Part shown: in pieces, positions 27,189-30,166 of the stretch
Numbering within the stretch: position 1 is the first letter of the stretch
How the letters are laid out: each line of letters begins with the position of its first letter
Source: Brevinematales bacterium
GTDB taxonomy: Bacteria > Spirochaetota > Brevinematia > Brevinematales > Thermospiraceae
Reading direction: 5' to 3'
Length of the DNA stretch: 64,000 nt
NCBI GenBank assembly: GCA_026417555.1
Contig: JAOADA010000001.1
Span: 399,245 to 463,244, forward strand
The notes under the pieces: model-generated
The model's input: only the letters and a program-made list of their open reading frames with translations
Told to the model about the DNA's origin: nothing
Databases searched by the model: none
Program-made: the position numbers and the translations under genes

Positions 27189-28940
27189 TTACGCCAACTT
27201 GAAGGCAAGCACCGTGATATCATCCCATGGAGAAACCCCTTCACTCCATTCTTCGACCTCACGGAAGAGTGCCTGAACAAAGGCAGAAGCGCTCATATTT
27301 CCATAGGTTTCAACAACCCGTTTGAGATTTGCAAAGCCAAATTCTATGCCATTTTGGTTATTCGCTTCGAGTACCCCATCAGTCACCAAAAATACAAGGT
27401 CATAAGGAGTGAGAACCATCGATTGGGCTTCAAACTCCGTGTCTGGTTGGATCCCAAGGGGAATACCCCTTCCAGAGAGAAGATGAATCTGGTTTGTTTG
27501 TCCTCGATACACATATTGCATGTTATGGCCTGCATTGGCATATCGGAACTCACAGGTTTCTAAATCCAAGACCCCATAAAATACGGTGACAAACATCCCT
27601 ACCCGAGAATCATCATAAAGGATATGATTGGCCATAGCCAAAACTTCTGAAGGCTCTTGAAGTTGATAGGCATAGGCCTTGAGAACACTTCGAGACACTG
27701 CCATAAAAAGAGAGGCAGGAAGTCCTTTCCCCGAGACATCCCCTATCACAAAACCAATGTGGGTAGGGTCAATCTCAAAAACATCATAGAAATCTCCCCC
27801 CACTACCTCAGCTGGCATCATCTTAGCAGAGAGAGAAAGTTTGGAAAAGCGATTGAAATCTTTGAGAAGAAGTGCATTTTGAAGCATACGCAGGATATCA
27901 ATCTCTCGACGAAGCTTCTCATGTTCAATCCGTTCCTGGTATATCTTGAGAGTATCATGGGTATATCCTACCTGTGAGGCAATCGTTTGGAGAAGCTTTA
28001 CCTTCTCTATGGAGTAGGTAACATTTTCTTTTGGTTCACTGACACTCAAGACCCCCACGGGGATATTCTTGCTTCGAATTGGAACGGCCATAAAAGCACC
28101 CTTCTGGTATCGCAAACGCTTGTTTTTGAGACCCTCTTGTTCTAAGTTATTGGTAAAAAAAGCCCTATTTTTTTTCATCACCATGGCTGAGATGCGATCA
28201 GATTCAAGGGGTATCTGAACTTTCTCAGCGAGGGTATCATCAATCCCTGTACCGGCGACAAGTACAAGACTATTTTTCTTCTCGTCAAGAAACATGATAG
28301 AGACCCGTTCTGACTCAAAAACATCTCGAATCAAGAGAGCAATGTGGGAAAAAACATCCTTTGGATTGAACGAAGATGTGGTAAGGTTACTGATGCGATA
28401 GAGATACTCCATTTCTTTCGCTCTGTCTTTGATCTCCTGATAAAGAAAGGCATTCCATATAGCAATAGCGGCTTGGTTAGCAAAACTCTGAAGAAGAAGG
28501 ACATCTTCCTCATCAAATCCCCCCTCTTTTGCATTCACAACCTCAAGCACACCAATCGCTATATCGTTTCTGATAAGGGGAACAGCGATGAGGTTTCGTG
28601 TTTGCATCTGTGTCATTCTGTCTACACCACTATAGAAATCCTTTTCTTGACTCGTATCATTCACAATTCGATATCTTTTGGTTTGAGCTACCTGTCCGGC
28701 AATACCTTTTCCTCTGGGTACCACAAGAGAGAGAAGTTTGTCAGAACTGATGCCAAAGGCCACCTCAAACCGAAGGTTTCCTGTTTCCTGATCAACAAGA
28801 AGAATAGAGGCTCCCTCAGCATTGAGTAGCCTCGCAGCATAAAGCGCAATATCCTGGAGAATATCTTTTGGTCTCGCCAAGGAGTTTATCTTTTGGCTAA
28901 TATCTAAAAGAGCCTGAAGATCCTGAAGACCGAGAGCCAT
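27189..28940 (-). CDS. GAF-GAF-SpoIIE serine/threonine phosphatase (RsbU-like)
   Basis: This is a 583-residue cytoplasmic sensor phosphatase. Two GAF domains (about 10-160 and 185-330) are joined to a PP2C-type SpoIIE phosphatase domain by a short helical linker. Metal-binding motifs are VGGDFYDV, GDVSGKGLPA and LVTDGVLEA, and the C terminus has DDITVLAFKL. Such proteins usually dephosphorylate an anti-sigma-factor antagonist; no partner kinase or STAS protein is visible in the window. GAF ligands are unknown. AAGGAG lies 6 bases before the ATG. YfiH follows 3 bases later. Confidence 0.92.
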   Translation of the reverse strand: MALGLQDLQALLDISQKINSLARPKDILQDIALYAARLLNAEGASILLVDQETGNLRFEVAFGISSDKLLSLVVPRGKGIAGQVAQTKRYRIVNDTSQEKDFYSGVDRMTQMQTRNLIAVPLIRNDIAIGVLEVVNAKEGGFDEEDVLLLQSFANQAAIAIWNAFLYQEIKDRAKEMEYLYRISNLTTSSFNPKDVFSHIALLIRDVFESERVSIMFLDEKKNSLVLVAGTGIDDTLAEKVQIPLESDRISAMVMKKNRAFFTNNLEQEGLKNKRLRYQKGAFMAVPIRSKNIPVGVLSVSEPKENVTYSIEKVKLLQTIASQVGYTHDTLKIYQERIEHEKLRREIDILRMLQNALLLKDFNRFSKLSLSAKMMPAEVVGGDFYDVFEIDPTHIGFVIGDVSGKGLPASLFMAVSRSVLKAYAYQLQEPSEVLAMANHILYDDSRVGMFVTVFYGVLDLETCEFRYANAGHNMQYVYRGQTNQIHLLSGRGIPLGIQPDTEFEAQSMVLTPYDLVFLVTDGVLEANNQNGIEFGFANLKRVVETYGNMSASAFVQALFREVEEWSEGVSPWDDITVLAFKLA

Positions 28941-28950
28941 ACTCTTCTCC

Positions 28951-30093
28951 TTAATACGCCGCTGAATAGATCTCTACCAATTCATTTTTGCTGGCTGGAC
29001 GAGGAATATACGTGAGAAACTCATACTGTCCAGCCACTCGTGCTGCTGCCTCAAGTCTGTCCTGTTCCACACCGTACTCTGATAAACGCTGAGGAATATG
29101 AAGATCGAGCATGATACGACGCATTGCCTCCACAGCCATAATAGCGGCTTCAATCACAGAGATATCGGTTACTTTTTCTCCAAGCGCTGCAGCAATTTGA
29201 ATGAACTTGTTGGCCGCAGCGGTGAGATTAAACTCCATCACATGAGGGAGAATAACGGCTGCCCCAATAGACTGGGAGATACCCGTTTGGGATTCAAGCC
29301 CCATGGAAGTGGCAGCACATGTTCCCAAAGCCGAACCATAAATAGCAAGGGACGCGAGCAAACTCCCCATGCTCAGGTTACCTTTGATCTTGGTGTTGGC
29401 TGTTTCCACAGCAAGACGTTTGAGGTTCACACTGAGGTACTCAATAGCACGAAGACTAAAAGCATCGGAAATAGGATTGGCCTTTTTGCAGATATAGGCA
29501 TCAAAGGAATACGCAATAGCCTCAAGACTTGAGTAGATGATATCATTGAGAGGAACTTCTTCACTCAAAGAAGGATCAATAATGACACTATGGGCTACCG
29601 AGTCCTTGTCAATATAGGGTTTTTTGATCTTGTCTGTATCGTCTGTGATATAGGTTTGTGGTAAAAGCCCCCAACAGATAGTCTGGAGTGTAGGAATTTC
29701 TATGTAGCGTATTTTCTTCATCAAAAGCTTTCGATGACTCTTCACCTCTTCCTGTTGAAACTCGTGGGTACTGAACTGAGCAATTACCTTGGCAATAGAA
29801 AGAACAGTAGCATCCCCTATCCCGATAACTACATCGGCACGGGCATGTTTGGTGATATTGACTCCCTCAAAGAGATCCTGGGTATTGTAACGTTTCATTT
29901 CATACATGATAACCCCATAGGCATACCCTTCAATCATCCGTTTCACCTTTTGAGCCACTGCAGAATTGTGCGGCTTTTTGTCTGTGACAATCACTACCTT
30001 TTCAGAATTTGGGGTTGCCAATTCAGGGAGACGGATAAGCGAATCCATTCCATACACAATAAGTGTAGGAACCTGAAATTCAAGAAAAGCCAT
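28951..30093 (-). CDS. Iron-ADH-family homologue lacking metal and nucleotide motifs
   Basis: The 380-residue frame aligns without gaps, from memory, to iron-dependent alcohol dehydrogenases through the helical C-terminal domain (ANPISDA and ILPHVMEFN are typical). All four metal ligands are replaced: Asp by E191, His by Y195, A260 and Q274. The neighbouring conserved histidine is M264. The NAD motif GGGS reads GIGD (91-94), and the TAGTGSE loop is missing. The protein is intact and full length, so it is likely selected for another role. It lies 10 bp upstream of the GAF-SpoIIE gene on the same strand. Confidence 0.85.
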   Translation of the reverse strand: MAFLEFQVPTLIVYGMDSLIRLPELATPNSEKVVIVTDKKPHNSAVAQKVKRMIEGYAYGVIMYEMKRYNTQDLFEGVNITKHARADVVIGIGDATVLSIAKVIAQFSTHEFQQEEVKSHRKLLMKKIRYIEIPTLQTICWGLLPQTYITDDTDKIKKPYIDKDSVAHSVIIDPSLSEEVPLNDIIYSSLEAIAYSFDAYICKKANPISDAFSLRAIEYLSVNLKRLAVETANTKIKGNLSMGSLLASLAIYGSALGTCAATSMGLESQTGISQSIGAAVILPHVMEFNLTAAANKFIQIAAALGEKVTDISVIEAAIMAVEAMRRIMLDLHIPQRLSEYGVEQDRLEAAARVAGQYEFLTYIPRPASKNELVEIYSAAY

Positions 30094-30166
30094 GGCTCTC
30101 TCCTTTTTTTCTCCTTTTTTTATTGTCGGCTTTTTTGGGCAAAAACTATGCTTTTTTGATCTTCTC

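Follow-up and report, generated by a model that had tools for sequence, protein, structure and literature searches.

What function can be left to a full-length member of the iron-containing alcohol dehydrogenase (Fe-ADH) family when its catalytic site has disappeared? This question is raised by a gene for a protein of 380 aa, P0001, located at 28951..30093 on the reverse strand of a 64,000-nucleotide stretch of Brevinematales DNA; this whole stretch is called the window. The gene and its relatives are referred to here as pseudo-ADH.

Fold and lost active site of the window protein

The frame runs from an ATG at 30093 to a stop at 28951 with no internal stop codon, and its product matches two Pfam models above their cut-offs (PF00465, 70.8 bits; PF25137, 102.1 bits). 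Solved Fe-ADHs match P0001 over the full length (115.7 bits for the best), and its AF2 model (pLDDT 90.5, pTM 0.89, poor only at residues 112–123) agrees with the solved structures at a TM-score of about 0.90 over about 380 residues, and thus both profile and fold identify P0001 as a homologue of the iron-containing ADHs. No curated NCBIfam model reached its own cut-off with P0001, and a search for viral relatives gave no match with E <= 0.001. The first-pass annotation judged decay to be unlikely from the full-length frame, and this judgement is strengthened by dN/dS values of 0.01–0.07 in eight close pairs of family members from five lineages (dS is saturated in several), which support purifying selection on the pseudo-ADH family. 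A pseudogene or an assembly error was rejected on the basis of the intact frame, the dN/dS far below 1 and the identical residues in independent assemblies.

In canonical enzymes the metal is held by one Asp and three His residues. In P0001 these are replaced by Glu at codon 191 (29521..29523), Tyr at codon 195 (29509..29511), Ala at codon 260 (29314..29316) and Gln at codon 274 (29272..29274), all on the reverse strand. Pairwise and family alignments return exactly these four residues, which had first been assigned by a gapless alignment, and agree also that M264 takes the place of the nearby conserved His; the same E191/Y195/A260/Q274 set is present in two other genomes of the window's genus. 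The NAD pyrophosphate motif GGGS had likewise been called lost and equated with GIGD at 91–94; the loss is correct and the register is off by two, because G93, G94, G95, S96 and D99 are invariant in 48 canonical sequences and the motif therefore belongs at 93–96, where P0001 has GDAT (codons at 29806..29817, reverse strand). The whole GGGSxxD pattern is missing, with Ser at the position of the invariant D99. When Asp plus three His is taken as the mark of the enzyme, P0001 falls outside, and so do all 126 members of its family, which keep only zero to two of these residues. An alternative metal site arising from a shifted alignment was also rejected, since the alignments have no gaps near the sites and no other set of His/Asp residues is conserved.

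A ligand-poor branch in the Spirochaetota

Homologues were collected from 60 genomes of the phylum, from a species-representative collection and later from a sample of 295 genomes. Of the four ligands, none remains in 87 of the 126 family homologues, one remains in 36 and two remain in 3, whereas 43 of the 48 canonical comparison proteins have all four and the other 5 have three; an intact GGGS was seen in no family homologue. Across lineages, position 191 is occupied by D, E, A, S, Q or N (Asp in 34/126), position 195 by L, I, Y, A or N, and position 260 by T, S, A, F, L or Y, while the commonest residue at position 274 is K. This Lys in place of the third His, found in 45/126 pseudo sequences, may reflect a single inherited change or several. 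The first-pass annotation had proposed looking for a clade with the same substitutions. A clade does exist: one branch of an unrooted quick tree divides 102 pseudo from 27 canonical rows with an SH-aLRT of 100. The same substitutions are not found in it, because the residues differ between lineages, and there is therefore no conserved replacement site. P0001 is assigned to the family by its score with profile A1 (485 bits, P0001 being itself a member of the profile), by its poverty in ligands and by its place on the pseudo side of this branch.

The catalytic and cofactor positions have lost their conservation, and conservation has risen modestly at R336, E315, E322, R325, 62–65 and 81–84. Near-invariant polar positions do exist (D151, D173, S202, E315 and R365), and these are probably structural because they are frequent in canonical enzymes, too. 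The pattern bears on whether the protein could be an enzyme of a different kind, with the old fold and a metal-free or differently coordinated site. Retention of the fold and of the nucleotide-loop glycine G93, the recurrence of Lys at 274 and Asp at 191 at the above frequencies, and the good conservation among close relatives within the genus would all suit such an enzyme. We regard it as improbable, because the pocket offers no new polar site with family-wide conservation, and because the ligand and NAD positions vary by lineage, the GGGS motif is lost in every member and the score of P0001 is below every curated NCBIfam cut-off. We infer that the dehydrogenase activity has been lost and that no other catalysis has replaced it.

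A profile score is insufficient as a test for this family, since members and canonical enzymes share a score range of about 210–280 bits in Treponemataceae-like and Sphaerochaetaceae-like genomes, and for this reason ligand residues and the position relative to flgM have been used as criteria. One genome (G145) has two ligand-poor Fe-ADH-like genes (L270 and L252), of which one lies behind flgM and is cut at a contig end, and the other lies elsewhere, with S/S/T/F at the ligand positions and 157 bits. Outside the Spirochaetota, the best 80 loci of the species-representative search contained no ligand-less homologue except one (L041; DYJV01000004.1, 4788–7140), labelled Candidatus Methylomirabilis. 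Its gene order, rsmI-flgM-pseudoADH, is of the spirochaete type, and the contig may be mis-binned, misnamed or transferred.

Linkage to flgM

On the same strand of the window, the pseudo-ADH gene adjoins a gene for a GAF-GAF-SpoIIE phosphatase (27189–28940, reverse strand), followed by pgeF, dnaG and rpoD. The first-pass annotation had noticed that this gene starts 10 bp past the pseudo-ADH gene, which is correct, and had suggested a possibly linked role. In a link of this sort pseudo-ADH might, for example, bind a ligand and act in partner switching of the stress type. The short gap on one strand and the maintenance of the order in five further genomes (G001, G002, G003, G006 and G007) speak for such a link. 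The suggestion does not hold up well and has become highly improbable, because the neighbour is present only in some Brevinematales: it is missing in G004, in the other families of the class, in f4 and f5 and in other classes, where the pseudo-ADH family persists. As a general explanation, the GAF-SpoIIE partnership was thus rejected as lineage-limited.

Clustering of neighbouring genes across the phylum has revealed a different recurrent order, namely rsmI, then a small gene product of about 96 aa, then pseudo-ADH. This product is the anti-sigma28 factor FlgM; seven of eight sequences tested exceeded the Pfam cut-off, and the eighth scored 22.5 against 25 bits. In the four sets of pseudo-ADH loci inspected, 30/53, 29/40, 30/32 and 6/7 have flgM as the immediate upstream gene on the same strand, and the loci without an adjoining flgM concentrate in the Brevinematia-like class, in families f14, f31 and f42, and in one genus (g26) of f22. 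Even strongly diverged copies (74–126 bits with the profile) are found directly behind flgM, and most other Fe-ADH genes of the genomes with such copies keep DHHH or DQHH. The phylum-wide partner is therefore flgM and not the GAF-SpoIIE gene, and the order with pseudo-ADH directly behind flgM, which is the commonest, is probably ancestral. The window genome itself has flgM behind rsmI with no ADH gene (G000:C27), P0001 lying apart from it, and this separation is common to the window's whole class. A mirror-tree comparison gave a modest partial r of 0.59 with FlgM given RsmI and of 0.20 with RsmI given FlgM. In two loci (L239 in G023 and L240 in G061) there is a second, weak FlgM-like match (26 bits, E 1e-5) with two in-frame TAG codons, perhaps a decayed copy.

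Presence and absence were compared in 295 genomes, each at least 90% complete, after doubtful pseudo-ADH hits had been settled by ligands and gene position; profile hits between about 1e-85 and 1e-60 were read as a sample rather than all, and those behind flgM were all ligand-poor. FlgM was found in 231/295 genomes and FliM in 261/295, the window genome having both, together with FliA above the cut-off. Pseudo-ADH is present in 216/231 genomes with FlgM vs 1/64 without it, the lone exception being a fragmented assembly (Fisher p ~1e-48, a value that ignores phylogeny, the FlgM-negative genomes belonging mostly to two clades). One such family, the Borreliaceae-like f35 (name inferred), has FliM and lacks FlgM, and in two of its genomes that were tested neither FliA above the cut-off nor pseudo-ADH was found. 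Another family, f47, resembling the non-flagellated Sphaerochaetaceae, is without FliM and FlgM, and its Fe-ADH hits, as far as they were read, have retained the ligands.

No pseudo-ADH was detectable in the 15 remaining genomes with FlgM, in one of them at a contig end, and FlgM is therefore able to function without it. In five of the loci (L222 in G176, L229 in G221, L230 in G193, L302 in G272 and L313 in G273) the gene next behind flgM is the one for a SpoU-type methyltransferase that elsewhere follows pseudo-ADH, which suggests clean losses of the ADH gene. At another locus (L238 in G065, a single-contig genome of 1.1 Mb, about as large as that of T. pallidum) flgM is strongly diverged (43 bits) and the gene after it is pheS-like and on the opposite strand; no pseudo-ADH was found genome-wide. 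According to this pattern of presence, pseudo-ADH depends on FlgM more than the reverse.

We have also compared promoters. In 91% of 92 loci, flgM is preceded by a sigma28-type site (TAAA, 15–16 bases, GCCGATAA), mostly 44–57 bases before the start; the percentage has some circularity in it, since the matrix was trained on 39 of these very sites. The pseudo-ADH genes located behind flgM have a site of their own in 6.6% of 91 cases, which is the chance level and is expected if the two genes share the flgM transcript. When pseudo-ADH lies away from flgM, a significant site of its own was found in 19/35 cases vs 5.2% of 541 neighbouring control genes (Fisher p ~8e-14 with relatives counted separately, the cases representing perhaps four to five independent lineages), and no site was found before the three canonical Fe-ADH genes on this promoter list. 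In the window, a weak sigma28-like site CATAGTTTTTGCCCAAAAAAGCCGACAA lies at 30123..30150 on the reverse strand, between the gene for an AEC transporter and pseudo-ADH, its first base preceding the ATG of P0001 by 57. Its score of 8.0 is marginal (shuffle p 0.049); it aligns with counterparts in other Brevinematales, several of which have TCCGATAA/ACCGATAA, and three genomes (G003, G006 and G009) have stronger sites at the same place.

These data bear as well on plain operon inertia, in which an rRNA-modification cluster (rsmI and the SpoU-type gene) would simply hold flgM together with a drifting paralogue. Because rsmI is upstream in most loci and the SpoU-type gene is downstream in several lineages, some of the linkage could reflect operon stability of this kind. 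As an account of the whole association it is hardly credible, since presence tracks FlgM across the 295 genomes, relocated copies often carry a sigma28-like site of their own at a frequency far from that of the controls, and pseudo-ADH is under purifying selection.

Proposed role and comparison with known systems

Both the regulon link and the disappearance of the metal site are supported by the above observations. From these we favour, with a probability of roughly 60%, the reading that pseudo-ADH belongs to the late flagellar regulon of sigma28/FlgM and has no catalytic role, its most likely binding partner being FlgM or FliA. A binding or structural role had been suggested from P0001 alone, and the family-wide loss of the metal and NAD sites, the purifying selection and the retained fold are all in its favour. 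The proposed course is as follows. A protein with the Fe-ADH fold, deprived of its metal site and canonical NAD motif, would have no dehydrogenase function; in the commonest arrangement it would be expressed from the sigma28 promoter of flgM, and in the window's lineage, where it is apart from flgM, possibly from the weak sigma28-like site of its own. Its action would be through binding, most probably to FlgM or FliA, and the binding may modulate the amount of free sigma28 while the periplasmic flagella are built. In the review PMC12655853, which cites Kurniyati 2023, the FlgM of T. denticola is described as unusual, in that it stabilises FliA and that deletion of flgM lowers flagellin expression; a further component is plausible in view of this behaviour.

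Synteny and co-regulation could go with any late flagellar product and are no proof of a physical interaction. The main alternative is therefore that pseudo-ADH is such a product, for example a cytoplasmic assembly factor, a chaperone or a structural piece, made under sigma28 and having no direct part in the regulation of FlgM or FliA; the sigma28-like promoters and the operon with flgM indicate only co-expression with late genes. In other bacteria flgN, which encodes a filament-junction chaperone, often follows flgM, and the slot behind flgM is thus able to hold an assembly gene. We consider this alternative possible and rather unlikely, because pseudo-ADH tracks FlgM and not FliM, the genomes that have FlgM and lack pseudo-ADH being mostly FliM-positive, and because the Borreliaceae-like family is flagellated without it. 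Moreover, flgN of T. denticola is elsewhere, having been reported in flgN-flgK-flgL-fliW-csrA (PMC9481697).

Pseudo-ADH, which nearly all flagellated spirochaetes with FlgM possess, mostly next to flgM and apparently under one flagellar switch with it, is probably an unrecognised part of spirochaete flagellar control. More tentatively, and with less confidence than we place in the binding itself, a dead iron-ADH may have been recruited a single time near the base of the Spirochaetota as a co-regulator binding FlgM/FliA, which would make the spirochaete sigma28 checkpoint a three-protein one where other bacteria have the FlgM-FliA pair, and the emptied substrate and cofactor pocket may sense a ligand. 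Spirochaete flagella are periplasmic and drive both cell shape and motility, and the control of their late genes is poorly understood; in a near-universal protein behind flgM, apparently switched by sigma28, there is now a concrete candidate for a control part still missing. The family also provides a clean example of an enzyme family that has lost its active site, apparently once, while its fold has been retained under strong selection. In many genomes its members are probably annotated as 'iron-containing alcohol dehydrogenase', and such annotation would place false reactions in metabolic models.

Pseudo-ADH is tied to the known FlgM-FliA (sigma28) checkpoint, including that of T. denticola, by its place behind flgM and, apparently, by a common sigma28-like promoter in most of the phylum. 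The difference is the ADH fold, as we know of no FlgM system with a partner of this kind. In the open literature, most subscription journals lying outside the scope of the search, there was no report on an flgM-linked Fe-ADH or on an Fe-ADH pseudoenzyme, and while the fold family is well known, its flgM-tied ligand-less branch appears to be new to that literature. The group III Fe-ADHs, such as the lactaldehyde reductase FucO (1RRM/2BI4), 1,3-propanediol oxidoreductase (3BFJ) and the methanol dehydrogenase of Bacillus (8ZWD), have the same fold; in contrast to these, P0001 lacks each of the four ligands and GGGSxxD, and across most of the phylum the gene is associated with flgM and with sigma28-like promoters. 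Deletion of AdhE, a bifunctional aldehyde/alcohol dehydrogenase, alters flagellar expression in E. coli O157:H7 (PMC4249723). AdhE has an Fe-ADH domain in common with pseudo-ADH, but it is an active enzyme and works at least partly via acetate, whereas pseudo-ADH is a single-domain protein without a catalytic site.

A regulatory annotation on the same fold exists for ErcA, the 'alcohol dehydrogenase-like regulatory protein' (NF041833). The context of ErcA is ethanol oxidation in Pseudomonas and not flagella. All of the 41 pseudo-ADH family members that were tested match the NF041833 model, P0001 with 138.8 bits, a score below the model's cut-off of 550.
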